Shown here piece by piece: positions 1-19,231 of a DNA stretch of 64,000 nucleotides (the first letter of the stretch is position 1; each line of letters starts with the position of its first letter). The notes beneath the pieces are model-generated. The model did not search any database and was not told the origin of the DNA. It saw nothing but the letters and a program-made list of their open reading frames with translations. A program made the position numbers and the translations under genes. The stretch spans positions 372,001 through 436,000 of the forward strand of contig NZ_CP019603.1 in assembly GCF_001661675.2 (NCBI RefSeq), in the 5' to 3' direction. This stretch comes from Croceicoccus marinus. GTDB lineage: Bacteria > Pseudomonadota > Alphaproteobacteria > Sphingomonadales > Sphingomonadaceae.

Positions 1-759
1 GTGCCGGGCATAACCCAGATGCTGTTCTATGCGCTGGTGATCTGGCTGCTGGTCCTTTTCCGCCCCTCCATCGCGCCGCGCAGCGACCGCGCCGGATGGG
101 GTGAGCGGATGCGCGCGCTGTCGCGCATCATCGACATGCTGGCGCTGATCGCACTGGTCATCGGCGGCATCGCGCTGGGCTGGATGAGCCCGACCGAGGC
201 CGCTTCGATCGGCGTGTCGGGCGCGCTGCTGATTTCGGCGCTGCGCCGCCGCCTGTCGCTGCCCATGCTTCAACACGCCTTTGGCGAGACGCTGCGAACC
301 AGCGGCATGATCCTGCTGGTGGTGATCGGGGCACTGGTCTTCTCGGTCTTCGTCAGCGTCACCGGGCTGGCCGATGCGCTGGGCACGCTGGTCACCGCGT
401 TCGACCTGGGACCCGTTGCCACCCTGCTGCTGGTCGCGCTGCTGCTGCTGCTGCTGGGCTCGGTGCTCGACGGGCTGGCGCTGATGCTGCTGACCACGCC
501 GATCCTGCTGCCCATCGTGCAGCAGGTGGGCATGTCGCCAATCTGGTTCGGCATCTTCATCTGCCGCGCGATGGAGATCGGCTTCGTCCACCCGCCGCTG
601 GGCATGAACCTCTATGTCATCCAGGGCGTGGCCAAGGACGTGCCGATCACCCGCATCTTCAAGGGCGTGACCCCCTTCCTGCTCAGCGATCTGCTGCATC
701 TGCTGCTGCTGATCCTGTTCCCCGCCATGGCCTTGTGGCTGCCGACGATACTGGAATGA
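1..759 (+). CDS. TRAP transporter large permease (DctM family), C-terminal part
   Basis: Membrane permease of a tripartite ATP-independent periplasmic transporter, which imports organic acids using the ion gradient. Only about 250 C-terminal residues are in the window; full DctM proteins are about 430 residues, so the true start lies to the left and the GTG at base 1 is only the first codon seen. Long hydrophobic stretches alternate with short loops, and the family signature near the end reads FVHPPLGMNLYVIQGVA, matching the conserved G-x-x-x-P-P-x-G-x-N element. Its stop overlaps the next start as ATGA (756-759), so it is co-translated with a CoA-dehydratase subunit. The matching solute receptor is encoded at 5034, so the transporter genes are split by the catabolic genes, which suggests they import the substrate of those enzymes. 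The small DctQ subunit is presumably upstream. Confidence 0.85.
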   Translation: MPGITQMLFYALVIWLLVLFRPSIAPRSDRAGWGERMRALSRIIDMLALIALVIGGIALGWMSPTEAASIGVSGALLISALRRRLSLPMLQHAFGETLRTSGMILLVVIGALVFSVFVSVTGLADALGTLVTAFDLGPVATLLLVALLLLLLGSVLDGLALMLLTTPILLPIVQQVGMSPIWFGIFICRAMEIGFVHPPLGMNLYVIQGVAKDVPITRIFKGVTPFLLSDLLHLLLLILFPAMALWLPTILE

Positions 760-1640
760 AGCCTATGATCGCCTCTGTCGGGCCGGTGCTGCCCCTTCCC
801 CTGCTTCGCGCGACGGGCCGCTATCGCGGCGCGCTGGGCTGGAATGTCGAGCGGGAGATGCCCTTTGCCGACCGCTGGCTGGAATCGAAGTTCCCCCGCT
901 GGGCCTTCTCGATCCTCGAAGATTGGGGCGCGGGACGGTTCGACGATCTGGAGACGGTCGTGTTCTCGCGCGCGGACGATGGGGCGCAGCGGCTGTATTA
1001 CTATGTCTGCGAATTGCAGCGACGCGGCGTGATGGGCGGGCCGCTGCCGCTGATCTGCGACGTCACGCTGATCCCCCGTCCGCACGGCCAGGCGCACCTG
1101 GAAGCCGCGCTGGCACGGCTGGCGGACCGGCTGGACGTGGGCAGGGACGCGCTGGCGCGTGCTCTGGACGAAGCCGCCTTGGGCGCACCCATGCCCCCGG
1201 AAGGGAACGGCCCGCTGTGCCTGCTGGCCGGAACCCCGCCGCCCGACCGCCGCCTGCACGATGCGGCGGCGCAGGCGGGCTGGCGCATGCACGGACCCAC
1301 GCTGACCGAAAGCTGGAACGACATGGCTGCGATCCCGCCGGAGCCGGGCGAGAGTCCCTTTGCCGCGCTGGCCCGCGCGATGCGCGCGACCACCGCCGCC
1401 AGCCGCGGCTTCCGCGACCGCAACGCCGCGCTCGCCGCCGAGGTCGGGCAGACCGGCGCCAGCGCCGCGGTGCTATGGTTCACCGAAGAGGACGAGGCCC
1501 GCATCTGGGACCTGCCCGGACAGAAGCGCGTGCTGGAGGAGCTGGGCGTGCCGGTGCTTGCGCTGACCCGCCGCGACTGGGCGGCACGCAACGGCGCGGG
1601 CCGCGAAATTACGCAGTTCCTGAAGGAGACAGCCGCATGA
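756..1640 (+). CDS. 2-hydroxyacyl-CoA dehydratase family subunit (smaller, alpha/BcrC-like)
   Basis: Protein of 294 residues related to the subunits of 2-hydroxyacyl-CoA dehydratases and benzoyl-CoA reductases, which remove water from 2-hydroxyacyl-CoA or reduce aryl-CoA through a ketyl-radical mechanism. The family is recognised from the block VVFSRADDGAQRLYYYVCEL at about residues 67-86 and the repeated Rossmann-like halves ending in GVPVLALTRRDW. The position where active subunits often carry a cluster-ligating Cys (SCD) here reads ADD, so this subunit may not hold an iron-sulfur cluster. The ATG at 756 overlaps the upstream stop; the open frame reaches 735, but coupling favours 756. The gene overlaps the CoA-transferase at 1637 by 4 bases, and the second subunit lies directly beyond it. 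The assignment to the superfamily is firm; the reaction is inferred. Confidence 0.7.
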   Translation: MKPMIASVGPVLPLPLLRATGRYRGALGWNVEREMPFADRWLESKFPRWAFSILEDWGAGRFDDLETVVFSRADDGAQRLYYYVCELQRRGVMGGPLPLICDVTLIPRPHGQAHLEAALARLADRLDVGRDALARALDEAALGAPMPPEGNGPLCLLAGTPPPDRRLHDAAAQAGWRMHGPTLTESWNDMAAIPPEPGESPFAALARAMRATTAASRGFRDRNAALAAEVGQTGASAAVLWFTEEDEARIWDLPGQKRVLEELGVPVLALTRRDWAARNGAGREITQFLKETAA

Positions 1641-3739
1641 AACCGCTGGCCGGACACCGCCTTGCCATGCTGGGCGCGATGCGGGACCGCCCGCTCGCCC
1701 GCTATCTGCTGTCGATGGGGGCAGAGCCTTGCGAACGGGTGGAGGATGCCTCGTTCGTGATCGACGACCTGGGACTTGCCGAAACGCGCGAGCTGCCGAT
1801 CCCGGCCAGCGCGGTCCATGTCTCGGTCACCCCGTTCGGATCGGGCGGCCCGCTGTCGCAGTGGAAGGGCGGAGAGCTGGTCGCATCCGCCATGGGCGGC
1901 GCGCTGCGCGTGACGGGCGAGCCGGGCCTGCCGCCGGTCAAGGAAGCGCTCGACGCGTGCACGTTCCATGCCGACATGGTGGCGGCCTGCGGCGCGATGG
2001 CGGCACATTATGCGCGTGGAAACGGCAAGTTCGGGCACGGAAGGGGCCAGCATGTCGACGTGTCGATCCAGCAGGTCGCCTTCAGCCGCAATTTCAACGG
2101 CGTGCTGGTCTGGCAGTTCGACCGGCGCAAGCTGGAACGAGTCGGCGGATCGCTCGCCTATGGCAAGGCCAAGGTGCGCGCGATCTGGACGCTGGCCGAC
2201 GGCTGGTGCTTCCATTCGCTGATGACGGGCCGGCTGGGCGCACCCGCGAACCAGGCCCTCTCTGACTGGATGGACGATGCCGGCATGCCCAACCCGCTGG
2301 CGGGTACCGACTGGCTATCCTATAATCGATCGACCCTGCCCGCCGAAACGCGCGCGGTATGGGAAGCCGCCATCGCGGCGTTCTTCGCCAGCCGGACCAA
2401 GGCTGAGATTGCCGACGAGGGGCACCGGCGCGGCATCAATGCCTGCGTCGTGAACGAACCGGCGGACGTGCTGGCCGATCGGCACCTGGCCGCGCGCGGT
2501 TTCTTCGATACTCCCAGCGGTCTGCCCGAACGCTTTGCCGCTCTGCGAGAGGGCGAGGCGAAAGCGCTACCGAATCCAGCCGTTCATGCGGGCGAGCGGC
2601 CCGGCCCGCTGTCGGGCGTCAGGGTGCTGGATTTTGCCTGGGCGCTGGTCGGATCGATCACCACCAAGACGCTGGGCGACCTGGGGGCCGAGATCGTGAA
2701 GATCGAAAGCCGCACTCGCCCCGATCTCGCCCGGCTGGACGTCCAGGTGTCGGCGTCGGAACATGGCAATCTGGACGACAAGCCATGGTTCGCCCATCTC
2801 AACAGTTCCAAGCGCAGCCTGTCGCTCGACATGAAGAACCCGCGTGCGCGCGAGATCCTGGACCCGCTCATCGACTGGGCCGATGTGGTGGTGGAGAATT
2901 TCTCGCCCGGCACCATGGGCAAGCTGGGGCTGGATTACGACACGCTGGCACGGCGCAATCCCGGCATCGTGATGGTATCGGGCAGCGTGTTCGGCCAAAC
3001 CGGGCCGATGGCGCAGGAATGGGGCGTCGACGGCACCGGCGGCGCGCTGTCGGGGCGGACCTTCCTGACCGGCTATCCCGGCCGCGATCCGGTGATCCCC
3101 GGCGCGGTGCCCTATGGCGATGTCATCGTGCCCTTCGTGATGGCCGCCGGTGTCGCGGCCGGGCTGCAGCACCGGCGCGACACCGGGCGCGGCTGCCACA
3201 TCGATGCATCGATGTACGAGATCTGCGTCCAGCAGATGCGCCCCAGCCTGGCCGCCGCGCTGGCCGGGCAGCGTCCGCAGCGCATGGGCAATGCCGATCC
3301 GCAGGTGCATTTCCAAGACGTGTTCCCCGCCGCGGGCGAGGATCGCTGGGTCGCCATCAGCGCGTTCACTGCCGATGAATACGAAAAGCTAATCGCCATT
3401 ACCGGCAGCGACATCTCCGCCTGGACCGCCGCCCGCGAGGATCGCGCCATCGCGCGGGAGCTTCAGGCCGCAGGTCTGGCCTGCGGCGTGGTGCAGGATG
3501 CCGAGGACATGATCGATCACGACCCGCAGCTTGCCGAAAGGGGCGCGCTGGTCATGCTGGACCATCCGCTGCTGGGCCCGTTCGGCCATATCGCCACGCC
3601 GATCCGCTTTTCGCACGATGGCTTCGAACCATTCCGCGCCCCGCGCATGGGCGAGCATTGCCGCGAAATCGCGCATGACATCTGCGGCCTGTCCGATGCC
3701 GCCATCGACGATCTGACCCAGGCCGGAGTCTTCCAATGA
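1637..3739 (+). CDS. Tandem-domain CaiB/BaiF (class III) CoA-transferase
   Basis: Protein of 700 residues made of two class III CoA-transferase modules, about twice the usual 380-420. These enzymes move CoA between carboxylic acids through an Asp-bound anhydride. The N-terminal module carries GRGQHVDVSIQQ with the expected nucleophile Asp141 but lacks much of the normal N-terminal Rossmann start. The C-terminal module begins near residue 325 (LSGVRVLDFAWALVG), has the usual VVVENFSPGTMGKLGLDY block, and GRGCHIDASMYE with Asp523. Both ends overlap neighbours by ATGA, placing it between the two dehydratase subunits. It probably activates the imported acid for the dehydratase. Fused double modules are known in the family; whether both sites work cannot be told from sequence. 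Confidence 0.85.
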   Translation: MKPLAGHRLAMLGAMRDRPLARYLLSMGAEPCERVEDASFVIDDLGLAETRELPIPASAVHVSVTPFGSGGPLSQWKGGELVASAMGGALRVTGEPGLPPVKEALDACTFHADMVAACGAMAAHYARGNGKFGHGRGQHVDVSIQQVAFSRNFNGVLVWQFDRRKLERVGGSLAYGKAKVRAIWTLADGWCFHSLMTGRLGAPANQALSDWMDDAGMPNPLAGTDWLSYNRSTLPAETRAVWEAAIAAFFASRTKAEIADEGHRRGINACVVNEPADVLADRHLAARGFFDTPSGLPERFAALREGEAKALPNPAVHAGERPGPLSGVRVLDFAWALVGSITTKTLGDLGAEIVKIESRTRPDLARLDVQVSASEHGNLDDKPWFAHLNSSKRSLSLDMKNPRAREILDPLIDWADVVVENFSPGTMGKLGLDYDTLARRNPGIVMVSGSVFGQTGPMAQEWGVDGTGGALSGRTFLTGYPGRDPVIPGAVPYGDVIVPFVMAAGVAAGLQHRRDTGRGCHIDASMYEICVQQMRPSLAAALAGQRPQRMGNADPQVHFQDVFPAAGEDRWVAISAFTADEYEKLIAITGSDISAWTAAREDRAIARELQAAGLACGVVQDAEDMIDHDPQLAERGALVMLDHPLLGPFGHIATPIRFSHDGFEPFRAPRMGEHCREIAHDICGLSDAAIDDLTQAGVFQ

Positions 3740-5037
3740 CCAGAGCGCCCTCAACAACAGGCACCGGCCAGCGCATGCGCAAGACACTGGCCTGCACGGC
3801 CGAGGCCGCCGCCTATCAGAAGGCCTATGGCATGGACCTGCGCCGCCGCGTGGTGGACGAAGGCGAGCCCTTTGCCATCGTGCAGGCCGACACCCCGCAC
3901 GAGATATTCCACGCAATGGACATACCGATCATCACCAACCAATGGTGGTCGGCCTATATCTCGGCCAAGCAGCTGTCGGGCCATTATTTCGAGGTTCTGG
4001 GGGACAAGGGCTATCCCGGCAACAGCTGCAAATATTGCTCGCTTGGCTTTGCCTGCACTTTGGCGAACGATCCCGAAACCGCGCCCTGGGGCGGCTTGCC
4101 GCGACCCACGGTGCTGGTCGCGCGGCTGACCTGCGACTGCATCCAGCATGTCTTCGGCCAGTGGGCCGAGGCGATGGATACCGAGTTCTTCCCGATGGAA
4201 GCCCCCGCGTGGGAGCACAAGGACCCGCGCTGGTTCGAGAATGCGCTGGACGACTGGGAGGAAGTCTATGGCCCCGCGCGCATCGACCTGATGGTCGCGG
4301 AAATGCGCGAGCTGATCGCCCTTCTGGAACAGCGCACCGGACGGCGTTTCGACGAGGAGAAGTTCCGGCACCTGATGGAACAGATCAACGTGCAGGAAGG
4401 CTATATCTGGGAAGCGAACCAGGCGCTGGCCAAGGCGCGCCCCTGCCCCGTGTCGATCGGCGAGCAGATGTCGAACACCATGATCCCCCAGTGGCACCGC
4501 GGATCCGACTGGGCGGTCGCGCATGCCAGGAAGTTCCGCGACGAGGTGATGGAGCGCATCGCGCAGGGCGAAGGCGCCGCGCAGGACGAGCGCGTCCGCC
4601 TGATGTGGATCGGCGCGGGGCTGTGGCACGATCCCGGCTTCTACCAGGCGCTGGAGGAGAAGATCGGCGCGGTCTTCGTCTGGTCGATGTACATGCCCTT
4701 TGCGGGGCCGCAATATATCCGCGCGCTGAAAGGCAGGCCGATGGAAGCGCTGGCCAGCCGGATCTGTTCGATGAACGAGGTGCTGCACCTGCCCCCCTGG
4801 ATGAACGGCTGGATGGGGAACGAGGCGCAGCGCTGCGGCATCGATGCCGCGCTGGTGCTGCTGCCGCCCGACAACCGCCTGTCGCAATCGGGCACCAGGA
4901 TGACCGCGCATACGCTGGAGGAAGCCGGCGTGCCGGTGCTGATGCTGGATGCCGACATGGTCGATGCCGCCAACTGGGACCATGACCGCATGGTGACGCT
5001 GGTGTGCGACTTCCTGAAGGAGAAGAGGCTGGCATGA
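3736..5037 (+). CDS. 2-hydroxyacyl-CoA dehydratase family subunit (larger, HgdB/BcrB-like)
   Basis: Protein of 433 residues of the HgdB/HadB/BcrB superfamily. Seen: IPIITNQWWSAYISAKQLSG, a Cys-rich segment SCKYCSLGFAC (Cys98, Cys101, Cys107), then TCDC (Cys133, Cys135) at the place where homologues have their ligand motif, followed by the C-terminal half with GVPVLMLDADMVDAANWD, the usual end block. These cysteines could bind a [4Fe-4S] cluster. Known enzymes of this family need an ATP-dependent activator of the ASKHA type and are inactivated by oxygen; no activator gene is in the window. Overlaps of 4 bases on both sides couple it to the CoA-transferase and the TRAP receptor. The superfamily call is good. 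Whether it is a dehydratase, reductase or something else is open. Confidence 0.75.
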   Translation: MTRAPSTTGTGQRMRKTLACTAEAAAYQKAYGMDLRRRVVDEGEPFAIVQADTPHEIFHAMDIPIITNQWWSAYISAKQLSGHYFEVLGDKGYPGNSCKYCSLGFACTLANDPETAPWGGLPRPTVLVARLTCDCIQHVFGQWAEAMDTEFFPMEAPAWEHKDPRWFENALDDWEEVYGPARIDLMVAEMRELIALLEQRTGRRFDEEKFRHLMEQINVQEGYIWEANQALAKARPCPVSIGEQMSNTMIPQWHRGSDWAVAHARKFRDEVMERIAQGEGAAQDERVRLMWIGAGLWHDPGFYQALEEKIGAVFVWSMYMPFAGPQYIRALKGRPMEALASRICSMNEVLHLPPWMNGWMGNEAQRCGIDAALVLLPPDNRLSQSGTRMTAHTLEEAGVPVLMLDADMVDAANWDHDRMVTLVCDFLKEKRLA

Positions 5038-6095
5038 CCGCCGCGCGCGCAGTTTTCGGCAGGTGGGCCGCCATCGTGCTGCTGGCGCTGGCCGGGCTGC
5101 TGGCGGGCTGCGCACAGCCTGCCCCGCCGGGAGTGACGGTGCTGACCTATGCCAGCCCATACGGCCCCGGCCACCCGTTCAGCCGCGCCGACCAGGAGTG
5201 GATCGACTGGGTGGAGAAGGAATCGGGCGGCAGCATCCAAATTCGCCCGAACTGGTCGGGCCAGCTGCTGTCCAGCGACATGTCGCTTGAGGAATTGCGC
5301 CACGGGGTCGCCGACATTGGCCTCATCACCCCGATCTATTCGCGCGGGGGAACGCATCTGACCCGCATCCAGACGGGTTTCTATTCGGGCGCGGACACCA
5401 TGCCGCAGCAGCTGGCGCTGTATCGCTGCATGCTGGAAAGCAGTCCGCAATTGAGAGCCGAGATCGCCGGGCTGAAGGTGCTGGCCGTGCAGGGCGGGCC
5501 GACCGTGGGCATCGTGACGCGCGACCGCAGGCTGTCCAGCCTGGACGATCTGCAGGGCCTGCGCCTGCGCGCCCCGACAGAACTGCTGACCGTGCTGGGC
5601 ACCCTGGGCGCGGACCCCGTCAACATGCCAATGGGAGAGGTCTATTCCGCGCTGGCCAAGGGGGTGATCGACGGGGTGATCGCGCCTGCCGACACGTTCC
5701 GGTCGCTGCATTTCGCCGAGGTGACGGGCCATTTCAACACGCTGGTGATCCCGCGCGGCGCCTATCCCGCGCGCGCCATGGGGCAGGAACGCTGGGACCG
5801 GCTGACGCCCGAACACCAGGCGCTGCTGGAACGGGGCATCGCGGTCTGGGAAGCGGCGATGATGACCGAGCTCGAGACCGCCTGGCAGCAGGGATATGAC
5901 GAGGCCGTGGCGCAGGGGATCGAGATCAGGGGCATGTCGCGGTCCGAACAGGCGCGCTTCGACGCGCTCTACCTTGCCGATGCGGAGCGCAATGCGCAGG
6001 CGCTGGGCCGCTTCGGCATCGATGGCGAGGCGGTGTTCCGCACCGCCCGAAGCAGCCTGCGCGAAGACGGCGCAATCTCATGCAACGAGGAGTGA
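5034..6095 (+). CDS. TRAP transporter solute-binding lipoprotein (DctP family)
   Basis: Periplasmic substrate receptor for the TRAP permease ending at 759. The ATG at 5034 overlaps the previous stop (ATGA), giving 353 residues; an earlier in-frame start is unlikely. The N-terminus is a lipoprotein signal with lipobox LLAGC, so Cys25 would be lipidated and the receptor tethered to the membrane. Family features follow: YASPYGPGHPFSRADQEWIDWVEKE, LEELRHGVADIGLI, LQGLRLRAPTELLTVLGTLGADPVNMPMGEVYSALAKGVIDGVI (shown in part as the usual R-x-P plus E-x-Y-x-A-L pattern) and the conserved Arg that clamps a carboxylate. The substrate is therefore probably an organic acid. Its position after the dehydratase genes suggests the acid is the precursor of the CoA-ester handled there. 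Confidence 0.9.
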   Translation: MTAARAVFGRWAAIVLLALAGLLAGCAQPAPPGVTVLTYASPYGPGHPFSRADQEWIDWVEKESGGSIQIRPNWSGQLLSSDMSLEELRHGVADIGLITPIYSRGGTHLTRIQTGFYSGADTMPQQLALYRCMLESSPQLRAEIAGLKVLAVQGGPTVGIVTRDRRLSSLDDLQGLRLRAPTELLTVLGTLGADPVNMPMGEVYSALAKGVIDGVIAPADTFRSLHFAEVTGHFNTLVIPRGAYPARAMGQERWDRLTPEHQALLERGIAVWEAAMMTELETAWQQGYDEAVAQGIEIRGMSRSEQARFDALYLADAERNAQALGRFGIDGEAVFRTARSSLREDGAISCNEE

Positions 6096-6100
6096 GAACG

Positions 6101-7093
6101 ATGATGGAGAGGACCCGAACTGCCCTGCGGGGAAGCGCGGCGGCGGCGGCCATGGCGGCGCTGGCGATGGCCCTGCCCGCGATGGCGGAGGACGAGCAGG
6201 CCCCCGCCCCTCCGGGCCCGATCGGCGATCCGACCGGCCATGGCGCATGGCCGGCCATTGCGGAATCGCGCGCCGATGCGCCGGGCTTCACCATCTATCG
6301 CCCCGCGCGCCTGCCCGATCGGCCGCTGCCGCTGGTGCTGTGGGGCAATGGCGGCTGCCGCGACGCGGGGCTATCGGCGGCGCATTTCCTGCGCGAGGTC
6401 GCGAGCCACGGCTATATCGTCATCGCCAATGGCGCGCCGCGCGGCGAACAGCCGGTGGATCCGGGACTGCCCGAACCCGAAGCGGCCGAAACGAGCGAAC
6501 CCCAATCCCCGCCTCCCCCGCCCCCGATGGGCCCGGACGAGACAAGCACCGCGCAGATGCTGGCCGGGATCGACTGGGCCATGGCGGCCAACACGCGCGC
6601 GGGCGATAGCCTGGAAGGCCATGTCGACACCGACCGCGTCGCGGTCATGGGCCACAGCTGCGGCGGGCTGCAGGCACTGCAGGCGGGCGCCGACCCGCGC
6701 GTCGACGCGGTGGTCGCGCTGGCCAGCGGGGTCTATGTGCAGACCGGCCCCGCGCGCAGCGGCGTGAACATCGCCAAGGCGGATCTGGCGCGGCTGCATA
6801 CCCCCGTCGCCTATATCCTGGGCGGGCCGAGCGACATTGCCTATCCCAACGGAATGGACGATTTTCAGCGGATCGAGCACGTGCCGGTGATGGCTGCTTC
6901 GCTCGACGTGGGGCACGGCGGGACGTTCAACCGGCCCGCGGGCGGCGAATGGGCGCTGGTCGGCACCGCCTGGCTCGACTGGCAGCTGAAGCAGGACGCC
7001 GCCGCCGCGCAATTCTTCACCGGCCCCGACTGCCGCCTTTGCGTATTGCCGGAATGGACCATCCGGCGAAAGAACTTCCCGGAGAACCCATGA
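6101..7093 (+). CDS. Secreted alpha/beta hydrolase (esterase-like)
   Basis: Protein of 330 residues with a Sec signal ending near AMA-EDE, so periplasmic or exported. It has the alpha/beta-hydrolase core: PLPLVLWGNGGCRDAG (oxyanion region) and the nucleophile elbow GHSCGG with Ser186; a likely His lies in DVGHGGTFNRP. A low-complexity Pro/Glu stretch sits at about residues 125-145 before the catalytic elbow. The start chosen (ATG 6101) has GAGGAG 8-14 bases upstream; the open frame extends to 6080. It could release the acid taken up by the TRAP system from an ester or lactone, which would explain its place between the receptor and the second CoA-transferase. The substrate is unknown. Confidence 0.75.
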   Translation: MMERTRTALRGSAAAAAMAALAMALPAMAEDEQAPAPPGPIGDPTGHGAWPAIAESRADAPGFTIYRPARLPDRPLPLVLWGNGGCRDAGLSAAHFLREVASHGYIVIANGAPRGEQPVDPGLPEPEAAETSEPQSPPPPPPMGPDETSTAQMLAGIDWAMAANTRAGDSLEGHVDTDRVAVMGHSCGGLQALQAGADPRVDAVVALASGVYVQTGPARSGVNIAKADLARLHTPVAYILGGPSDIAYPNGMDDFQRIEHVPVMAASLDVGHGGTFNRPAGGEWALVGTAWLDWQLKQDAAAAQFFTGPDCRLCVLPEWTIRRKNFPENP

Positions 7094-8244
7094 ACCAACC
7101 GCTTGCCGGCATCACGATTGCCGATTTCAGCCATGTCATGGCCGGTCCCTATGCCACCCATCTGCTGTGCATGCTGGGGGCCGACGTCATCAAGATCGAG
7201 GCGAAGGGCGGCGACAATTTCCGAAATTACGGTGCCGACCGGCGCTTCGACGGGATGTCGCCGGCCTTCATCGCGGCCAATGCGGGCAAGAAATCGATCG
7301 CGCTGGACCTGAAGGAAGATGGCGACGCCGCCATCGCGCAGCGCATCGTCGCGCGCTGCGACGTGGTGGTCGAGAATTTCCGCCCCGGCGTGATGGCGCG
7401 GCTGAACCTGGGCTATGACCAGGTCCGCGCCGCCAATCCGGACGTGATCTATTGCTCGATCTCGGGCTATGGGCAGGACAGTCCGCAGCGCGACTGGCCG
7501 GCGATCGACAATATCGTGCAGGCGACCAGCGGCATGATGCTGCTGAGCGGCAGCGAGACCGACGATCCCGTGCGCGTGGGTTTCCCCATCGTCGACACGC
7601 TGACCGGCCAGTCGGCGGCCATCGCGATCCTGAGCGCGGTGGTGCGCAGGCAGAACGGCGGCGGCGGCAGCCATATCGACGTCGCCATGTTCGATGCCGC
7701 GCTGGCGTTCATGACCTCGGCGCTGACACCCTTCATGGTGACGGGGCAGTCGATGCCGCGCATGGGCAATACCGGCTATTCGGGCCTGCCCACCGCGTCG
7801 CTGTTCACCGCGCGCGACGGGCGCGAGATTTCGCTGGGCGTGGTGCAGCCCAACCAGTTCGCGGCGCTGGCACGTTTCCTGGACCGGCTGGACTGGCTGG
7901 AGGATCCGCGCTTTGCCACCCCCGATGCGCGGCGCAAGAATTTCGACGCGATGACCCGCGAACTCGCCGCGGTGTTCGCAGCCCGCGATGCGGCGGACTG
8001 GGAAACCGGCCTGAATGCGGCGGGCATCCCCTGCGGCATGGTGCGCAAGGTAGAGGAAGCCGTTGCGCTGGCAGGCCCCGACGCGATGGTGACAATGGCG
8101 ATCGAGGGGATTCCGGGCGGCGACACGGTCGCCATTCCGGGTGCCGGTTTCCGCATGACGCCGGACGGGCCGGGGACCGACAGGCCCCCGCCCCGGCTGG
8201 ATGCCGACCGCGCGGACATACTGGAATGGCTGGACCGCGATTGA
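7090..8244 (+). CDS. CaiB/BaiF (class III) CoA-transferase
   Basis: Single-module class III CoA-transferase of 384 residues, normal family length. Seen: ITIADFSHVMAGPYATHLL at the N-terminus (Rossmann start), GADVIKIE, VVVENFRPGVMARLNLGYDQ, and GGGSHIDVAMFD containing the expected catalytic Asp197. Start ATG 7090 overlaps the hydrolase stop (ATGA). It is the last gene of the plus-strand operon and converges on ferA, separated by a GC-rich hairpin. With the tandem transferase at 1637 the operon has two activities of the same class, possibly for substrate activation and for recovering CoA from the product. Confidence 0.88.
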   Translation: MNQPLAGITIADFSHVMAGPYATHLLCMLGADVIKIEAKGGDNFRNYGADRRFDGMSPAFIAANAGKKSIALDLKEDGDAAIAQRIVARCDVVVENFRPGVMARLNLGYDQVRAANPDVIYCSISGYGQDSPQRDWPAIDNIVQATSGMMLLSGSETDDPVRVGFPIVDTLTGQSAAIAILSAVVRRQNGGGGSHIDVAMFDAALAFMTSALTPFMVTGQSMPRMGNTGYSGLPTASLFTARDGREISLGVVQPNQFAALARFLDRLDWLEDPRFATPDARRKNFDAMTRELAAVFAARDAADWETGLNAAGIPCGMVRKVEEAVALAGPDAMVTMAIEGIPGGDTVAIPGAGFRMTPDGPGTDRPPPRLDADRADILEWLDRD

Positions 8245-8253
8245 TCCGGCAAG

Positions 8254-8282
8254 TGCAGGCGGGCCGCTTCAGCCCGCCTGCA
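8254..8282. terminator. Hairpin between converging genes
   Basis: An 11-bp perfect stem TGCAGGCGGGC / GCCCGCCTGCA with a 7-base loop lies between the CoA-transferase stop (8244) and the ferA stop (8269-8271), overlapping the last ferA codons. It has no T-run on either side, so it may be a barrier hairpin rather than a classic intrinsic terminator. Confidence 0.45.
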
Positions 8283-10407
8283 TCAGCGCATCCAGCGCGC
8301 TGCATCCTTCGCCCTCGGGCAGCACCACCACGGGGTTGAGGTCGATTTCGCGAATGCCCGGCGTCCCGCGAACCGCCGCGCCCAGCCTTTCGACCAGCGC
8401 GGCCAAGGCCGCGACGTCAAGCCGGGTCGAACCACGAAACCCGGTCAGCAGCGCCGCGCCCTTCAAAGCGAGCAGTTCCGCCTCGATCGCCTTTGCCGAC
8501 AGATCGGGCACGATCACCCGCACATCCTGGTGCAGTTCCGCCTGCACCCCGCCGAAGCCGACCAGTATGACCGGGCCCCAATCGGGATCGTTCTTCGCGC
8601 CGACGATCATCTCCACGCCGCGCTTGCCCATCGCCTCGACCAGCACGCCGTCGAGCGTCAGCGAGGCGTCGTAAGCCGCGACATTGGCATGAAGCCGGTT
8701 CCATGCCTGGTCCATCGCTACATCGTCCGCGACATTCAGGATCACGCCGCCCGCATCGCTTTTATGGCTCAGCCTTGCGGACTGCGCCTTCAATGCGACC
8801 GGATAGCCGACCCGCGCGGCCACCGCCTTCGCCTCGTCCGCGCTGCGCGCAAAGCCGCCGGGCGGGAATGGTATGCCGACGGGGGCAAGCAATTGCTTGG
8901 CCCGGTATTCGGGGATCGTGCCCGCAAGCGGCAGGTCGATGGCAACCGGTTCAAGCGCAGAGCGCGCCGCCGCGCGTTCCATCGCCTCGCCATAGCGCCG
9001 GATCGCGCGAAAGGCGCGGTCGGGCGAAGGGAAATAGGACACGCCAAGCTCGCGCAGCCGCTCGATATAATGGGCGGGCACTTCGGCCCCGTCGTCCATG
9101 CCCGCGAAGATCACCGGGGTTTCGGGCGTCAGCTCCTCCATCGCGGCGATCACGGCGGGGAACTTGCGGTCGCTGGTCGGTGCGTCGGTCTGGATCACGG
9201 CAAAGACCACGCTGCCATATTGCGGATCGGCCAGCAGCGCCTGAAGCGTGCGGCGATAGAGATCGGGATCGACCAGCGCCTGCGCGGTCAGGTCCATCGG
9301 GTTCGACACCGGGATGAAATCCGGCAGCCCCTCGCGCAGCAGCGCGCTTGCCCGGTCCGATGGGTGCGGCAGGTCCAGCCCGATCTGCTCGCACAGATCC
9401 AGCGTCAGCGCCTTGAACGCGCCGCTTTCGGTCAGCACTGCCGCCGCGCCGACCGGCGGGCGCGGCGCACGCGCCGCCAGGTCGAGCACGTCGCCCAGTT
9501 CCTCAAGACTGTCGACCAGAACCACGCCCGCATCGCGCACCTTGGTCCGCATCACGCTGTAATCGCCCGCCATCGCCCCGGTATGGGTGGCGGCGGATTC
9601 GCGCGCCGCTGCGGACTTTCCGGGATGCAGCAGCACGATCGGCTTGCCCATCTCGGCCGCGCGCCGCGCCAGCGACAGGAAGCGCGCCGGATCGCGGAAC
9701 TGCTCGACGATCATGCCGATGATCTGCGTATCGGCATCGTCCAGCATCTGCTCGACATAATCCTCGACGCCCGACGCCGCCTCGTTCCCGGTCGAGATGA
9801 AATAGGAGAGGCCCAGCCCCTTGGCGATCAATGTCGTGGTCTCGACGATGGCCATCGCGCCCGATTGCGACACCAGCGCGATATTGCGGCCCGCACGCCG
9901 CGGGACGGGCGGAATCTCGACAAAGGTCAGCGGAATTCTGTCGAGGAAATTGGCCATGCCAAGGCAATTGGGCCCCTCGATCACCATGCCCGACCGGCGC
10001 GCGATCTCGCCGATCTCGGCCTGTGCGGCCAGCCCTTCGTCGCCGCCCTCGGCAAAGCCGGCGGAAAAGATGATCGCCGCGCCCGCCCCTCGCCGCGCCA
10101 GCGCGCGCACGCTGTCCAGCACGGCGGGGCCGGGTATCGCCAGCACCGCCACGTCGACCCCTTCGGGCAGGTCGTCGATCGAGGCGACGCAGGGCCGCCC
10201 GTCGATCTCCGAACGCCTGGGGTTCACCAGATGCAGATCGCCCACGAAACCAAGCCGGTCGAGGTTGCGCATCACCGAATTGCCCAGCGCGCCGGGCGTG
10301 GGCGACGCGCCCACGATGGCGACGGATCGCGGCCGCAGCAGCCGCGCCACGTCGGGCGCGCCTGCCGTATTGTCGGCTCCGGCGGCGGTCAGGCTGTCGG
10401 TGGTCAT
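8269..10407 (-). CDS. ferA: Feruloyl-CoA synthetase, NDP-forming acyl-CoA synthetase type (FerA-like)
   Basis: Protein of 712 residues of the NDP-forming acyl-CoA synthetase family. Order seen: CoA-binding Rossmann domain with VAIVGASPTPGALGNSVMRN; two ligase domains with SQSGAMAIVE and the phosphohistidine segment ATHTGAMAG (His275); then a C-terminal ATP-grasp domain (GIPFPPGGFA, VALKAQSARLSHKSDAGGV). Ferulate activation in Sphingobium SYK-6 is done by FerA of this type, not by an AMP-forming ligase. The neighbours ferB (5 bases upstream) and vdh complete the route ferulate to feruloyl-CoA to vanillin plus acetyl-CoA to vanillate, which supports the call. Without that context it would be only a generic acyl-CoA synthetase. 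It is the last gene of the minus-strand operon. Confidence 0.8.
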   Translation of the reverse strand: MTTDSLTAAGADNTAGAPDVARLLRPRSVAIVGASPTPGALGNSVMRNLDRLGFVGDLHLVNPRRSEIDGRPCVASIDDLPEGVDVAVLAIPGPAVLDSVRALARRGAGAAIIFSAGFAEGGDEGLAAQAEIGEIARRSGMVIEGPNCLGMANFLDRIPLTFVEIPPVPRRAGRNIALVSQSGAMAIVETTTLIAKGLGLSYFISTGNEAASGVEDYVEQMLDDADTQIIGMIVEQFRDPARFLSLARRAAEMGKPIVLLHPGKSAAARESAATHTGAMAGDYSVMRTKVRDAGVVLVDSLEELGDVLDLAARAPRPPVGAAAVLTESGAFKALTLDLCEQIGLDLPHPSDRASALLREGLPDFIPVSNPMDLTAQALVDPDLYRRTLQALLADPQYGSVVFAVIQTDAPTSDRKFPAVIAAMEELTPETPVIFAGMDDGAEVPAHYIERLRELGVSYFPSPDRAFRAIRRYGEAMERAAARSALEPVAIDLPLAGTIPEYRAKQLLAPVGIPFPPGGFARSADEAKAVAARVGYPVALKAQSARLSHKSDAGGVILNVADDVAMDQAWNRLHANVAAYDASLTLDGVLVEAMGKRGVEMIVGAKNDPDWGPVILVGFGGVQAELHQDVRVIVPDLSAKAIEAELLALKGAALLTGFRGSTRLDVAALAALVERLGAAVRGTPGIREIDLNPVVVLPEGEGCSALDALMQAG

Positions 10408-10412
10408 GGCGA

Positions 10413-11252
10413 TCAGCTCTTTTGCTTGTTCAGATCATAGGCGCCCAGGCCCGGCTTGTAGCTCTTCTCGTCGATGAACTGCTTGATGCCTTCCTTGCGC
10501 CCCTCGTTGTCGTAGCTGTTGGCGGCTTCCTGCGCGCGGACCAGGAAATCCTCGGCATTGTCATAGGTCATCTCGCCCACCCGGCGGATCGCGTCCTTGG
10601 TGGCCTTCAGCGCGACCGGGTTCTTCTGCAACAGCACCTGCGCGACGTCGTTAACGCGCTCCTTCAGCCGGTCGGCGGGCACCGCCTCGTTCACCAGCCC
10701 CCATTCGGCGGCGGTCTTGCCGTCGACGTTCTCGCCCATCATCGCGTGATACATGGCGTTGCGGAAATTGGTCAGCTCGCGGATGATCTTGGTCGCGCCG
10801 CCGCCGGGCAGGATGCCCCAGTTGATCTCCGACAGGCCGAACTGCGCATCTTCCGCCGCAAAAGCCAGATCGCAGGCGAACAGCGGGCCATAGGCGCCGC
10901 CAAAGCACCAGCCGTTGACCATGGCGATGGTCGGCTTCTGGTACCAGCGCAGCCGCCGCCACCAGCCATAGGACGAACGCTGCGCCGCGCGGGTCGCGCC
11001 CAGCCCCTTGGCCTCGGTCTCGCGGAAATATTCCTTCAGGTCCATGCCTGCGGAAAATGCCGTGCCCTCGCCCGTCAGCACCAGCACGCCGAAATCGTCG
11101 CGATATTCAAGCTCGTCCAGCACGGCATTCATGTCGTCGTTCAGCGTCGGGCTCATGCAGTTGCGCTTGTCGGGGCGGTTGAAATACAGCCATGCGACGC
11201 GGTCGACGATCTCGTATGCGACGGTGCCGCTTGCGGTGGTGGTCCTGGTCAT
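10413..11252 (-). CDS. ferB: Feruloyl-CoA hydratase-lyase (p-hydroxycinnamoyl-CoA hydratase/lyase)
   Basis: Crotonase-fold enzyme of 279 residues. It hydrates feruloyl-CoA (or p-coumaroyl-CoA) and cleaves the product to vanillin (4-hydroxybenzaldehyde) and acetyl-CoA. Diagnostic blocks: FNRPDKRNCMSPTLNDDM, the oxyanion stretch VNGWCFGGAYGPLFACDLAF, and LSEINWGILPGGG with Glu142, equivalent to the catalytic Glu143 of the Pseudomonas enzyme; the Tyr in MTYDNAEDF matches the substrate-binding Tyr. Start ATG 11252 has AAGGAG 7-12 bases upstream. It lies 5 bases before ferA. The long conserved N-terminus distinguishes it from ordinary enoyl-CoA hydratases. Confidence 0.9.
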   Translation of the reverse strand: MTRTTTASGTVAYEIVDRVAWLYFNRPDKRNCMSPTLNDDMNAVLDELEYRDDFGVLVLTGEGTAFSAGMDLKEYFRETEAKGLGATRAAQRSSYGWWRRLRWYQKPTIAMVNGWCFGGAYGPLFACDLAFAAEDAQFGLSEINWGILPGGGATKIIRELTNFRNAMYHAMMGENVDGKTAAEWGLVNEAVPADRLKERVNDVAQVLLQKNPVALKATKDAIRRVGEMTYDNAEDFLVRAQEAANSYDNEGRKEGIKQFIDEKSYKPGLGAYDLNKQKS

Positions 11253-11281
11253 GGAATGCTCCTTGAGGAAAAGATGCCGGC

Positions 11282-11836
11282 CTATTCGACCGAATAGAAA
11301 TCGATGATCACGCGGTCCGGAAACCGCACGCCGCGCGCGACGAAGACCTGCCGCTCAAGCCAATGGTGCGGGCCGTCCGCCACGCGAAAGCGCGGCTGCG
11401 TGCGGAAATAATAGCTGTCCTGCGGCACCGGCTCGCCGATGCGCAGCTTCTCGATGGTCGCCTCGTCCGCGACGCGCACGCCGGGGTTGTGGACCTCGAT
11501 CACCGTGCCGTCCTCGGCCTTCAGGAAATAGCGCGCCTCGATGTCGCTCAGCCCGCCCTTGCGGATGATTTGCCAGTCGCCGCCACCGGGCAGCACCGTG
11601 CCGGTCAGCCTTGGGCCATAGACCTCGCCCCCGGTGATCGGGATGAAGCGGCTGATGCCGCCGTCGATCTCGCCCTGCTCGATCGCGGGATCGACCTCGA
11701 CCCGGACCGAAAAGGCCCATTCCAGCGCGGGCTTGGGCGCGGCGGGGCCGGACCGATCGGGGCCGGACGGGTCCTGCGCCGCCGCGCCCGATGCCAGCCC
11801 TGCTGCGGCCGCGGCGGCGATGATGGATCTACGCAT
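11282..11836 (-). CDS. Exported DUF3237-like protein
   Basis: Protein of 184 residues with an Ala-rich Sec signal (cleavage after about residue 20, ASGAAAQDP). The mature part, EWAFSVRVEVDPAIEQGEI, followed by GGEVYGPRLTGTVLPGGGDW and a C-terminal FPDRVIIDFYSVE, fits the small beta-barrel DUF3237 family, often found in aromatic and steroid degradation clusters without an assigned reaction. It sits inside the ferulate operon, 17 bases after vdh and 29 before ferB. Periplasmic placement between cytoplasmic enzymes suggests a role in substrate handling or envelope access, but this is a guess. Confidence 0.65.
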   Translation of the reverse strand: MRRSIIAAAAAAGLASGAAAQDPSGPDRSGPAAPKPALEWAFSVRVEVDPAIEQGEIDGGISRFIPITGGEVYGPRLTGTVLPGGGDWQIIRKGGLSDIEARYFLKAEDGTVIEVHNPGVRVADEATIEKLRIGEPVPQDSYYFRTQPRFRVADGPHHWLERQVFVARGVRFPDRVIIDFYSVE

Positions 11837-11853
11837 CGGTTACGCCCTGCCGG

Positions 11854-13281
11854 TCAGATCGGGAAATGGCCGGGCTGGGTTTCCATCGTGATCCAGCGCG
11901 TCTCGGTAAAGCTGTCGATGCCCTGCCTGCCGCCGAACCGGCCATAGCCCGATGCGCCGACCCCGCCGAAAGGCATCTGCGCCTCGTCATGGACGGTTGG
12001 GCCGTTGACGTGGCAGATGCCGGACCTGACCTGCCGGGCGACGCGCAGACCGCGTGCCGTGTCGCGGGTGAAGACCGCGGCGGACAGGCCATATTGCGTG
12101 TCGTTCGCCAGCTCGATCGCATGCGCCTCGTCGCGGGCGCGGATCATGGCGACGACGGGGCCGAAGCTTTCGTCGCGGTACAGATTCATCGCATCGGTCA
12201 CGCCGTCGACCACGGTGGCGGGCATCAGCACGCTGTCGGCGGTGCCGCCGGTCAGCAATTTCGCGCCCTTGCCCTTCGCATCCTCGATCAGCGCATTGAC
12301 GTGATCGACCGTCTTGCGGTCCACGACCGCGCCCAGCGGAGTATTGCCCTTTCGCGGGTCGCCGGTGGCCATGCTGCCCGCCTTGGCGGCGAATTTCTCG
12401 GCAAAGGCGTCGGCGACCGAGTCGACAACGATGATCCGCTCGGTCGACATGCAGATCTGGCCCTGGTTCATGAAGGCGCCGAACGCCGCCGCCTTCACCG
12501 CCTCGTCCAGATCGGCATCGTCCAGCACGATCAGCGGCGCCTTGCCGCCCAGTTCCAGCAGGCAGGGCTTCAGATGCTCGGCCGCGCGCCTGGCGATGAT
12601 CCGGCCCACCGCGGTCGATCCGGTGAAATTGATGCGCCTGACTTGCGGAGCATCGATCAGCGCGCCGACCACCTCGGCAGCATCCTCGGGCGCGTTGGTC
12701 ACGACATTGACCACGCCTTCGGGGAAGCCGGCTTCCGCAAAAGCCTCGATGATCAGCGCATGGGTGCGCGGGCAGTTCTCGCTCGCCTTCAGGATCACGC
12801 TGTTTCCGCAGGCCAGCGGTACCGCGATGGCGCGCACGCCCAGGATGATCGGCGCGTTCCACGGCGCGATGCCCAGGATCACGCCCACCGGCTCCTTCAG
12901 CGCCATGGCCAGGCAGCCGGGCTTGTCCGACGGGATCACCTCGCCCGCGATCTGGGTGGTGATGGCCGCAGCCTCGCGCACCATGCCCGCGGCAAGGCCC
13001 AGGTTGAACATGGCCCAGCCCGCGGTCGATCCGGTTTCGGTCATCATCGCGGCAACAAAATCGTCCTTGCGCGATTCCAGCGCATCGGCCGCCTTGTTCA
13101 GCACTGCGCGGCGGGCGTTGGGGCCCATCTGCGACCATTCGGCGAATCCGGCCTGCGCCTTTTCGGCGATATGCGGAATGTCGTCGGCCTTCATGGCGGG
13201 CGCGGTGGAAGCGACCTCACCCGTCAGCGGGTCGAGGCGCGAAAATTCTTCGGCGGTGGACCGCCCGGGCTTGTCTGCCAT
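11854..13281 (-). CDS. vdh: Vanillin dehydrogenase-type aldehyde dehydrogenase
   Basis: NAD(P)-dependent aldehyde dehydrogenase of 475 residues, the normal family length, oxidising vanillin (or 4-hydroxybenzaldehyde) to the acid. Seen: GVILGIAPWNAPIILGVRAI, GGKAPLIVLDDADLDEAVKA with the conserved Glu in LELGGK, and the catalytic Cys277 in NQGQICMSTERI. The C-terminal block ICHVNGPTVHDEAQMPFGG is typical of the vanillin/salicylaldehyde dehydrogenase branch. Start ATG 13281 has AAGGAGAGG directly upstream, and a perfect inverted repeat (13296-13314) lies just beyond, so transcription probably starts under MarR control. First gene of vdh-DUF3237-ferB-ferA. Confidence 0.88.
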   Translation of the reverse strand: MADKPGRSTAEEFSRLDPLTGEVASTAPAMKADDIPHIAEKAQAGFAEWSQMGPNARRAVLNKAADALESRKDDFVAAMMTETGSTAGWAMFNLGLAAGMVREAAAITTQIAGEVIPSDKPGCLAMALKEPVGVILGIAPWNAPIILGVRAIAVPLACGNSVILKASENCPRTHALIIEAFAEAGFPEGVVNVVTNAPEDAAEVVGALIDAPQVRRINFTGSTAVGRIIARRAAEHLKPCLLELGGKAPLIVLDDADLDEAVKAAAFGAFMNQGQICMSTERIIVVDSVADAFAEKFAAKAGSMATGDPRKGNTPLGAVVDRKTVDHVNALIEDAKGKGAKLLTGGTADSVLMPATVVDGVTDAMNLYRDESFGPVVAMIRARDEAHAIELANDTQYGLSAAVFTRDTARGLRVARQVRSGICHVNGPTVHDEAQMPFGGVGASGYGRFGGRQGIDSFTETRWITMETQPGHFPI

Positions 13282-13456: not shown

Positions 13457-14755
13457 ATGGACCCCCGCAAGACGATCGAATCGGGCCCGATGACCCGCTT
13501 CCAGTGGTCGGTCGTGGCGATCATGATCGGGCTGATCGCGCTGGACGGGTTCGACGTGCTGTCGATCAGCTTCGCCTCGCCCGGTATCGCGGCGGAATGG
13601 GGGATCGACCGCGCGGCGCTGGGACTGGTGCTGTCGATGGAGCTGATCGGCATGTCGGTCGGGTCCATCGTGTTCGGGCGGCTGGCCGACGGCTATGGCC
13701 GGCGCACCACCATCCTTGCGTGCCTTGGCGTGATCGCGCTGGGCATGTTCGGCGCATCGACCGCGGGCGGGGTGGTGTCGCTGTCGGCCTGGCGCGTGGG
13801 CACCGGGCTGGGGCTGGGCGGGATGCTGGCCGCCACCAATGCCGCCACGGCAGAGGTCGCCAATGGCCGCTTTCGGTCGCTGTGCGTGGTGATGATGGCC
13901 GCGGGCTATCCGCTGGGCAATGTCATCGGCGGCAGCGTGGCGGCGCAATTGCTGGCGATGTACGACTGGCGCGCGATCTTTCAGTTCGGCGCGATCGTCG
14001 CGGCGCTGTTCGTGCCGCTGGTCTGGTTCTGCGCGCCGGAATCGATCGAATTCCTGATGCACCGCCGCCCGGCGGGCGCGCTCGCCAAGGTGAACCGCAC
14101 GCTGGTCCGCATGGGCAAGCCCACCATCGACGCCCTGCCCGAGGTGGAGGTCCAGCGCGAAAAGGCGGGCCTGCGCACGCTGATGAACGGCCAGCACATG
14201 GTCCCCACGCTGGCGCTGACCTTCGTCTATTTCGCGCATATCATGACGTTCTATTTCATCCTGAAATGGATCCCCAAGATCGTCGCCGACATGGGCTTCG
14301 AACCTTCCGCCGCGGCAGGGGTGCTGGTGTGGGCCAGTGTGGGCGGCCTGCTGGGCAGCGCGCTGCTGGGCCTGCTGACCATTCGCGTACGGGTGTTCTG
14401 GCTGACGGTGGTCGCGATGGCCGCATCGTCGCTGATGGTGATCTGGTTCGGCCAGTCGCAAAGCGATCTTGCATCGCTGTCGATCACCGCGGCAGCGGCT
14501 GGATTTGCGACCAATGCGGGCGTGGTGGGGCTTTACGCGGTGGTGGCGGCGGCCTTTCCCACCGCCCTGCGCGCATCGGCCACCGGGGTGGTCATCGGCA
14601 TCGGTCGCGGCGGATCGGCGCTGGCGCCCGCGCTGGCCGGCTTCCTGTTCGCCGCGGGCTATGGGCTGGGCACGGTGGCGCTGCTGATGGCGCTGGGGTC
14701 GCTGGCGGCCGCACTTGTGCTGCTGCTAATCGTGCGCCATGCGATTGCGACATGA
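13457..14755 (+). CDS. MFS aromatic acid:H+ symporter (AAHS family, PcaK/VanK-like)
   Basis: Inner-membrane carrier of about 432 residues with twelve hydrophobic segments. The first segment carries LIALDGFDVLSISFASPGI; the Asp-x-x-Asp motif in helix 1 is characteristic of the aromatic acid/H+ symporters. The loop 2-3 motif is GRLADGYGRRTTIL. The best-spaced ribosome site (AGAGGA, 13443-13448) favours ATG 13457; ATG 13448 is also in frame. It is transcribed divergently from the vdh-ferA operon across a shared operator, and the MarR gene follows after 31 bases. It most likely imports ferulate, vanillate or related acids. Confidence 0.85.
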   Translation: MDPRKTIESGPMTRFQWSVVAIMIGLIALDGFDVLSISFASPGIAAEWGIDRAALGLVLSMELIGMSVGSIVFGRLADGYGRRTTILACLGVIALGMFGASTAGGVVSLSAWRVGTGLGLGGMLAATNAATAEVANGRFRSLCVVMMAAGYPLGNVIGGSVAAQLLAMYDWRAIFQFGAIVAALFVPLVWFCAPESIEFLMHRRPAGALAKVNRTLVRMGKPTIDALPEVEVQREKAGLRTLMNGQHMVPTLALTFVYFAHIMTFYFILKWIPKIVADMGFEPSAAAGVLVWASVGGLLGSALLGLLTIRVRVFWLTVVAMAASSLMVIWFGQSQSDLASLSITAAAAGFATNAGVVGLYAVVAAAFPTALRASATGVVIGIGRGGSALAPALAGFLFAAGYGLGTVALLMALGSLAAALVLLLIVRHAIAT

Positions 14756-14786
14756 CCGACCGACCCGCATCACCGGACAGACCTGC

Positions 14787-15239
14787 ATGAACGAAGCGCG
14801 CGACAATCTGGGCCCGCTCGACCGTCTGGCCGGCTATCATTTCCGCCGCACGTCCAGCGCGATGCGCAAGGATTTCGAAAAGGCGGTGGACGGGCTTGGC
14901 ATAAGCCAGGTGTCCTTTGCCGTGCTGTCGGTGATCTCGGCCAATCCGGGCATCCGGCAGGGCGAAGTCGGGCGCATGCTCGACATCCAGCGCGCGAACA
15001 TGGTCACGATGATCGGCGACCTGACGAAATCGGAACTGGTCACGCGCGGCCGGGACGAAAGCGACCGCCGGGCCGTGACCCTGTCCCTGACCCCGCGCGG
15101 CCAGGATCAGCTGGCCGCCAGCCTCGCCCGCATCCAGGCGCGCGAGGCAAAGGCGCTGGAAGGGCTGGACGAAAAGCAGGTCGCGGCGCTGATCGCCACG
15201 CTGAACGCCATCCGCCGCAATTGCGAGAACGCGGACTGA
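14787..15239 (+). CDS. MarR-family transcriptional regulator (ferulate regulator, FerC-like)
   Basis: DNA-binding protein of 150 residues, typical for MarR. The winged helix is visible: ISQVSFAVLSVISANPGIRQ, then MLDIQRANMVTMIGDL as recognition helix, then the wing RGRDESDRRAVTLSLTPRG with the conserved D-x-R-R. In SYK-6 the ferulate genes are repressed by the MarR protein FerC and released by feruloyl-CoA. By position this gene is the likely counterpart, acting on the inverted repeats at 13296 and 17734. Start ATG 14787 chosen; an upstream in-frame ATG at 14739 would lie within the MFS gene and lacks a ribosome site. Confidence 0.85.
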   Translation: MNEARDNLGPLDRLAGYHFRRTSSAMRKDFEKAVDGLGISQVSFAVLSVISANPGIRQGEVGRMLDIQRANMVTMIGDLTKSELVTRGRDESDRRAVTLSLTPRGQDQLAASLARIQAREAKALEGLDEKQVAALIATLNAIRRNCENAD

Positions 15240-15298
15240 TCCCGCCGCCGGGAACAGGCGCATCAAGCGACCTGCCCCCGGCCAGCGGAACCCGCGCG

Positions 15299-19228: not shown

Positions 19229-19231
19229 GGC

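Follow-up and report, generated by a model that had tools for sequence, protein, structure and literature searches.

How a protein pair of the 2-hydroxyacyl-CoA dehydratase (HGD-D) family might work in a bacterium of aerobic type, with no recognizable activator, is the question raised by the first 8,244 nucleotides of a 64,000-nucleotide stretch of Croceicoccus marinus DNA (contig NZ_CP019603.1, positions 372,001 to 436,000; hereafter, the window). In this region, the genes for a small subunit of 294 amino acids (756..1640, + strand) and a large subunit of 433 amino acids (3736..5037, + strand) lie in an operon with genes for class III CoA-transferases and a tripartite ATP-independent periplasmic (TRAP) transporter. 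Dehydration of 2-hydroxyacyl-CoA esters is described in the available text of PMC11574389 as a textbook reaction held to require a low-potential radical. We found that the cluster ligands are altered in both subunits, that the genome has no match to an activator, and that the alterations extend through a whole clade of related proteins, from numerous and presumably for the most part aerobic bacteria. Our guarded preference is for a reading in which the pair would be an activator-free, relay-less, redox-neutral, and oxygen-tolerant CoA-ester lyase or dehydratase on the fold shared by 2-hydroxyacyl-CoA dehydratases and benzoyl-CoA reductases (HAD/BCR).

Ligand positions and activator genes

The large subunit belongs to the HGD-D family by a wide margin (PF06050, 1.2e-48; 166.9 bits, cut-off 28.4). 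Taken alone, its sequence matches HadB best among solved structures (3o3m_A, 3.1e-12), and a profile of its clade matches MbdO (4.4e-27), HadB (2.6e-22), BzdO (1e-21), and, more distantly, DCCP (6eno, 3.1e-6). In BzdO, the available text of PMC11971306 gives Cys95, Cys128, and Cys380 as the cluster ligands, places Glu65 and His131 at the water ligand, and names Glu65 as acid/base. Sequence alignments map Cys95, Cys128, Cys380, Glu65, and His131 to C98, C133, N380, Q69, and I136 of the window protein. Two of the three canonical [4Fe-4S] cysteines (C98 and C133) are therefore kept and the third is Asn380, while Gln69 replaces the catalytic Glu. The protein also has three extra conserved cysteines, C101, C107, and C135. 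Among 8000 candidates scored, 2198 were homologues of the large subunit at an E value of at most 1e-3, and C98, C101, C107, C133, and C135 are all present in every one of the best 120 of these, the window protein included (120/120); the other 119 are 75 to 84% identical to the window protein.

The small subunit matches no Pfam or NCBIfam model. A profile of its family matches HadC, chain 3o3m_B of 2-hydroxyisocaproyl-CoA dehydratase, weakly (E value of 8e-4), two sister small subunits match HGD-D (1.7e-13 and 6.2e-38), and 339 homologues were found at an E value of at most 1e-3. The original prediction that one subunit carries ADD in place of the usual SCD was right, yet all three ligand cysteines are gone, not one. 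None of the 26 clade small subunits, that of the window among them, has a ligand Cys at any of the three relay-cluster columns, whereas all three are present in 4 of 4 canonical rows. Asp occupies the second ligand column in 19 of the 26 clade rows; in the third column, 23 rows have Asp and 2 have Glu (25/26 together). Trp251 is found in all 26. Both genes are under purifying selection, because their dN/dS values lie between 0.13 and 0.37. The large subunit has a value of 0.13 against a Croceicoccus metagenome-assembled genome (MAG) and of 0.16 against Novosphingobium arvoryzae, and the small subunit has 0.37 against the same Croceicoccus MAG. The 2198 homologues, the low large-subunit dN/dS values, and the presence of TRAP and CoA-transferase neighbors in 75 of 80 loci (see below) together exclude chance as the source of these proteins.

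It had also been proposed that no activator accompanies the pair, and this holds for the whole genome of the window, in which neither PF01869 nor PF09989 gave any match for an HgdC/HadI-type activator; none of the open reading frames of at least 140 amino acids in the 10 kb to the left of the window reads as an activator either. We surveyed 27 genomes for PF01869, 22 with window-type proteins and 5 with canonical ones. All five canonical genomes have a match of 1.4e-75 or better adjoining the dehydratase genes. Of the window-type genomes, 8 have a match at 1e-3, and 3 have one better than 1e-20. In a second set of 47 genomes, one of which (G973) is canonical, 13 have a match at 1e-10; the two sets contain in part the same genomes under different handles, and their counts are not additive. 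The PF01869 matches of window-type genomes, which reach 1.8e-48, were considered as activators and rejected, as none of the 16 that were fetched contains the DxGGQD motif. We take this motif to be the activase signature, and it was present in 4 of 4 controls. The proteins without it are presumably of the BadF/N-acetylglucosamine-kinase type. Outside the fetched set are a match in G1156 (with the same coordinates as the fetched G226), a second weak one in G1189, four further ones in G1179, and every match weaker than 1e-10, and the survey left out G072, a sixth relative with another HGD-D match (partial, type undecided).

A locus on a Rhizobium leguminosarum plasmid (L122, 8809-14237) holds an HGD-D pair with canonical ligands and two annotated activases close by. 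The plasmid is typed as conjugative, and genes for a substrate-binding protein, a rhodanese, and a sulfate permease also lie by the pair. This locus is one example of canonical ligands and activases occurring together outside strict anaerobes.

The genome of the window has four COX1-family genes over the cut-off, and no anaerobic ribonucleotide reductase was found in it; the host is thus of an aerobic type. The label "oxygen-sensitive" in the original prediction was not confirmed, being inherited from the known family and carrying no evidence about the window proteins. What stands of the suggested aerobic, activator-free variant, at the level of sequence, is the lack of an activator, the altered ligands of both subunits, and the aerobic-type host, and a chemistry other than that of the known dehydratases is plausible.

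The clade and its variation

In a tree of 39 large subunits, the 34 of the window's kind group together, apart from the 5 canonical ones (support 100/98); the tree is midpoint rooted, and the program warned of long branches. By record title, the rows are mostly Proteobacteria, with two Myxococcota. The ligand changes are a clade-wide variant and not a one-off. The position of BzdO Glu65 is Gln in 32 of the 34 clade rows (Ala and Thr in L101 and L120) and Glu in all 5 canonical ones, at position 134, 31 of the clade rows have Asp and the other 3 have Glu, and 58 columns are constant in at least 33 of the 34. The cysteines are more variable. Cys is present at 98 and 133 in 20 clade rows, and among these only L116 keeps the third ligand. 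L116 thus has all three large-subunit ligands, yet its small subunit is without any ligand Cys and it has Gln for the Glu; its locus contains CoA-transferase, CocE, and TonB matches, and the sole activator-like match of its genome (L126) lacks the DxGGQD motif. In the remaining 14 clade rows, Cys is absent from all of the ligand and extra positions. These rows comprise L097 to L100 with L113, L104, the pair L101 and L120, and a group in which the small and large subunits are fused into one protein (L020, L102, L103, L105, L114, and L117). Nine of the 14 adjoin TRAP and CoA-transferase matches; of the other five, two are short loci (L113 and L114), two have a CoA-transferase and no TRAP match (L104 and L120), and one has neither (L101).

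Of 177 places confirmed in a scan of named genomes, the best 80 were kept as loci, and a neighbor was counted as a homologue at 30% identity or more if the match covered 40% or more of the query. TRAP and CaiB matches, one or more of each, occur together in 75 of these 80 loci. By component, relatives were found of DctP in 71, DctM in 70, DctQ in 61, the double CaiB protein in 74, and the small subunit in 60; the second CaiB protein has a relative in 76, a count in which paralogous CaiB genes may be included, since CaiB queries can be met by them. Further neighbors are a TonB receptor (49), a CocE hydrolase (49), a PETase-like hydrolase (43), a GntR regulator (28), and a P450 (6), and the CapA-like cluster is present in 47 of the 80; loci often end at contig edges. 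The spread is patchy, as the module was found, with the window's own genome counted, in 19 of 396 genomes from the order, 4 of 385 from the class, and 5 of 398 from the phylum (one of the latter, G973, canonical).

Several loci of the clade have features of their own. On a plasmid of Rhizobium sp. SSA_523, L120 contains a Cys-free module of 43% identity with two MmgE/PrpD-like genes, genes that we read as an ABC-type transporter, and no TRAP match, and this gene content suggests that its subfamily may act on a different substrate. L060, whose record is titled MAG: Klebsiella pneumoniae, clusters with a row from an uncultured gammaproteobacterium and has TRAP, CaiB, and HGD-D genes; the Klebsiella pneumoniae label is probably wrong. 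L104, from a genome of the window's family (G257), encodes a full-length glycyl-radical enzyme (14389-16806, - strand) with PFL-like and Gly_radical domains (PFL2-3, 506 bits, below the NCBIfam cut-off) within the 20 kb that also contain an RPE65-type oxygenase gene and a Cys-free HGD-D pair, and by our reading the start of an apparent second glycyl-radical gene lies at the end of the locus. The glycyl-radical enzyme is a further anaerobic-type radical family in the lineage of the window. A protein of about 538 amino acids with CxxCH motifs and no Pfam match, encoded in L074 at 18852-20465 (- strand), recurs in the flanks of the module (16 loci), and a second recurrent flank gene (11 loci) adjoins it in some of them.

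Proposed chemistry of the pair

If the pair is redox neutral, as we are inclined to think, the TRAP system would import an organic acid, perhaps an aromatic one, and the class III CoA-transferases, judged by their families, would load this acid onto CoA. The CoA thioester is predicted to be handed to the two-subunit HGD-D protein, which would have kept its fold and its role with CoA esters and abandoned the radical machinery. With a small subunit that lacks the relay-cluster ligands and no ATP-driven electron supply, the pair would carry out a redox-neutral and oxygen-tolerant elimination, hydration, or other lyase step on the CoA ester. Lewis-acid or acid/base groups at the former cluster sites may be provided by the Asp or Glu of the small subunit and by Asp134 of the large subunit, beside the second ligand cysteine, and in the window's own type the rearranged cysteine set may also act at the former cluster site. 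Loss of the relay ligands and loss of the activase coincide, as expected if electrons are no longer needed. The Cys-free relatives, of which nine out of 14 retain these partners in their operons, speak for a common chemistry that needs no metal or cluster, unless the subfamilies differ in their reactions.

The order of these losses can be proposed from one tree, in which the simplest course would be that the relay ligands and the Glu were lost first and the active-site ligands later. A fuller version of this history, which we offer tentatively, is a stepwise conversion in which the relay cluster and activase went first, the change of Glu to Gln came with this step or next, and the active-site cluster was lost last; carboxylates would then have replaced the clusters, and the result would be a CoA-ester dehydratase or lyase that tolerates oxygen and uses ionic or mononuclear-metal chemistry for the task of an anaerobic radical enzyme. 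In such a conversion, L116 would represent an intermediate that has survived.

Several points weigh against a redox-neutral pair. The five cysteines kept in all 120 listed members of the window's own type suggest a metal or Fe-S site rather than a dead one. A deltaproteobacterial MAG (G1179), a control genome and the exception known to us, has a true activase together with a window-type protein (L079). The 20 kb of L116 contain no TRAP gene match, and context therefore differs across the clade. A p-hydroxycinnamoyl-CoA hydratase/lyase gene lies close to the operon in the window and would hint at a substrate, but only 2 of 92 loci (80 named and 12 others; no chance expectation was computed) have this gene next to the module. 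In addition, the ligand positions were mapped by sequence alignment alone, which bears on the geometry of the replaced residues, and the aerobic type of the host was assessed in the genome of the window only.

The cysteine set is also the core of another explanation, in which the large subunit binds a new Fe-S cluster through CxxCx5C...CxC and catalyzes reductive or radical chemistry with an ordinary donor, such as ferredoxin or a P450 reductase chain, and with no ATP-driven activator. The constancy of the set, the identity of C98 and C133 with canonical ligands 1 and 2, and the three canonical ligands of L116 speak for such a cluster. However, 14 clade rows are Cys-free at these positions, nine of them beside TRAP and CoA-transferase genes, the small subunit has no relay ligands, and the host is of an aerobic type, and we regard a new cluster as unlikely, although worth keeping in view. 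Ligands and the catalytic Glu have been lost, and the small and large genes are fused in several members; these features could also describe a degenerate, noncatalytic pair, acting as a scaffold that binds CoA esters or as an allosteric partner of the CoA-transferases. This is doubtful, as the other 119 listed members are 75 to 84% identical to the window large subunit, the large-subunit dN/dS values are low (0.13 and 0.16), and 58 columns kept in at least 33 of 34 rows are above the expectation for a scaffold.

Two further explanations retain the classical chemistry. A normal radical dehydratase whose activase was missed by PF01869 and PF09989, or is supplied from elsewhere, would agree with the two canonical ligands left in the large subunit, with the class III CoA-transferase in the operon, and with the true activase of G1179, one window-type genome; it is at odds with a small subunit that has no relay-cluster ligands, with the replacement of Glu65, and with empty searches for a protein whose gene is adjacent in 5 of 5 canonical relatives, and we consider it very improbable. 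The family name alone speaks for an ordinary anaerobic dehydratase with its activator just beyond the window, the outcome that the original prediction had set against itself. Neither the 10 kb to the left nor the search of the whole genome yielded an activator, the ligands of both subunits are abnormal, and this explanation is already refuted.

Operon, neighboring genes, and related systems

The layout first described for the operon, with overlapping genes from a TRAP permease onward and two dehydratase-family subunits split by a CoA-transferase, was confirmed, and all six gene junctions overlap, by ATGA at 756, 1637, 3736, 5034, and 7090 and by GTGA at 6092. Positions 1-8244 are the right-hand portion of the operon; the contig is 761,621 bases long and the genome 4.1 Mb. 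All genes of this portion are on the + strand. The first is the C-terminal part of the TRAP large permease DctM (1..759; PF06808, 5.7e-50), whose gene starts to the left of the window. The small-subunit gene is followed by a fused two-domain class III CoA-transferase (double CaiB, PF02515) of 700 amino acids (1637..3739), and the large-subunit gene is followed by genes for the TRAP solute-binding protein DctP (5034..6095; PF03480, 1.1e-31), an alpha/beta hydrolase that is weakly PETase-like (6092..7093; PF12740, 6.5e-6, 26.2 bits, under the cut-off of 28), and a second class III CoA-transferase of the CaiB/BaiF family (7090..8244; PF02515, 1.4e-107). The N half of the 700-amino-acid protein has chain A of the benzylsuccinate CoA-transferase BbsEF as its best match (9fn0_A, 4.6e-16), and residues 324-591, in the C half, have chain B (9fn0_B, 6.2e-48); by sequence, the protein is a BbsEF-like pair fused into one chain. 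The nearest solved chains to DctP are 4nap (1.4e-23) and 4pgn (1.5e-23), which we take to be tryptophan and indole pyruvate binders, and a literature search gave no confirmation of this.

The locus that comprises the window and its left flank is L017, of which base 10001 is base 1 of the window; the complete DctM gene ends at L017:10759, that is, window position 759, and is preceded by DctQ (L017:9003-9452; PF04290). Besides DctQ, Pfam matches in the left flank include a P450 and a CocE/S15 hydrolase. By our reading, and by likeness to annotated neighbors on Novosphingobium plasmids, the flank may also contain a CapA-like gene, GntR and LacI regulators, and a TonB receptor. A PHROGs search gave no match. 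A plasmid of 1.03 Mb in Croceicoccus marinus OT19 encodes a protein 100% identical to the large subunit, and the window is therefore most likely part of a Croceicoccus plasmid.

To the right of the operon, on the - strand, are genes for an ADP-forming acyl-CoA synthetase-like protein (8269-10407; below the cut-offs of the models listed), the p-hydroxycinnamoyl-CoA hydratase/lyase (10413-11252; 453 bits against a cut-off of 276), a small conserved protein (11282-11836), and an aldehyde dehydrogenase (11854-13281; also below the cut-offs of the models listed). The small protein, encoded between the hydratase/lyase and the aldehyde dehydrogenase, is presumably DUF3237-like, and a 34%-identical gene occurs in the Rhodobacterales locus L097. 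An aromatic-acid-type transporter of the MFS family is also encoded near the operon (304 bits, below its cut-off of 418). These hydroxycinnamate genes (8269-13281) are possibly linked in function to the operon. In L116, from a different family of the same class, a hydratase/lyase of 76% and an aldehyde dehydrogenase of 72% identity are again found near the module; aldehyde dehydrogenases of at least 71.9% identity occur in 8 of the 92 loci, although in two the match spans no more than some 200 of 475 residues, and one more occurs at 35%. In Novosphingobium ES2-1, the cluster adjoins glucuronate genes, a tannase/feruloyl esterase, and MmgE/PrpD. Our leading guess for the substrate, made with low confidence, is an aryl-lactate or another acid from hydroxycinnamate esters. 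An aryl-lactate route into the ferulate pathway, as an aerobic counterpart of FldABC, is an assumption of ours that we keep as a lead only.

The systems closest in organization are HadBC, FldBC, and HgdAB with their HadA/FldA-type CoA-transferases, which share with the window the HGD-D fold (in the large subunit), the two-subunit composition, and a class III CoA-transferase in the operon. In HadA/FldA systems, the class III CoA-transferase is encoded in the same operon. Unlike these systems, the window has no activase that could be found, no relay ligands, no third ligand, and no catalytic Glu, and it has an aerobic-type host with TRAP, esterase, and P450 genes around the pair. Class I benzoyl-CoA reductases (MbdO and BzdO) include the best solved match of the clade profile, MbdO, and their Cys ligand positions can be transferred to the window protein, which has Cys, Cys, Asn, Gln, and Ile where BzdO has Cys95, Cys128, Cys380, Glu65, and His131; in contrast to these reductases, no double-cubane subunit and no ATP-binding subunits were found in the window case. 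DCCP is a distant HGD-D relative with a Cys layout unlike that of the window protein, which scored 29.6 bits in the NCBIfam double_cubane test, against a cut-off of 350. Among the CoA-transferases, BbsEF is a heterodimer, each chain of which is matched by one half of the 700-amino-acid protein, whereas the window protein is a single fused chain that is tied to an HGD-D pair. Among the openly licensed papers listed in our searches, judged by titles and the starts of abstracts, we recognized no work on activator-free or aerobic HGD-D proteins.

A branch that has the fold and the CoA-transferase partners and is without the clusters and the activase would show either that such eliminations can proceed in air or that a radical fold can be re-used. 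Names given to these proteins in the source records, such as "benzoyl-CoA reductase subunit B" and "2-hydroxyacyl-CoA dehydratase," may misstate the chemistry of the clade. With members that have three, two, or no canonical ligands, the clade is a ready series for probing which parts of the machinery are dispensable. Collectively, our results suggest that an old anaerobic enzyme has been rebuilt for a different chemistry.

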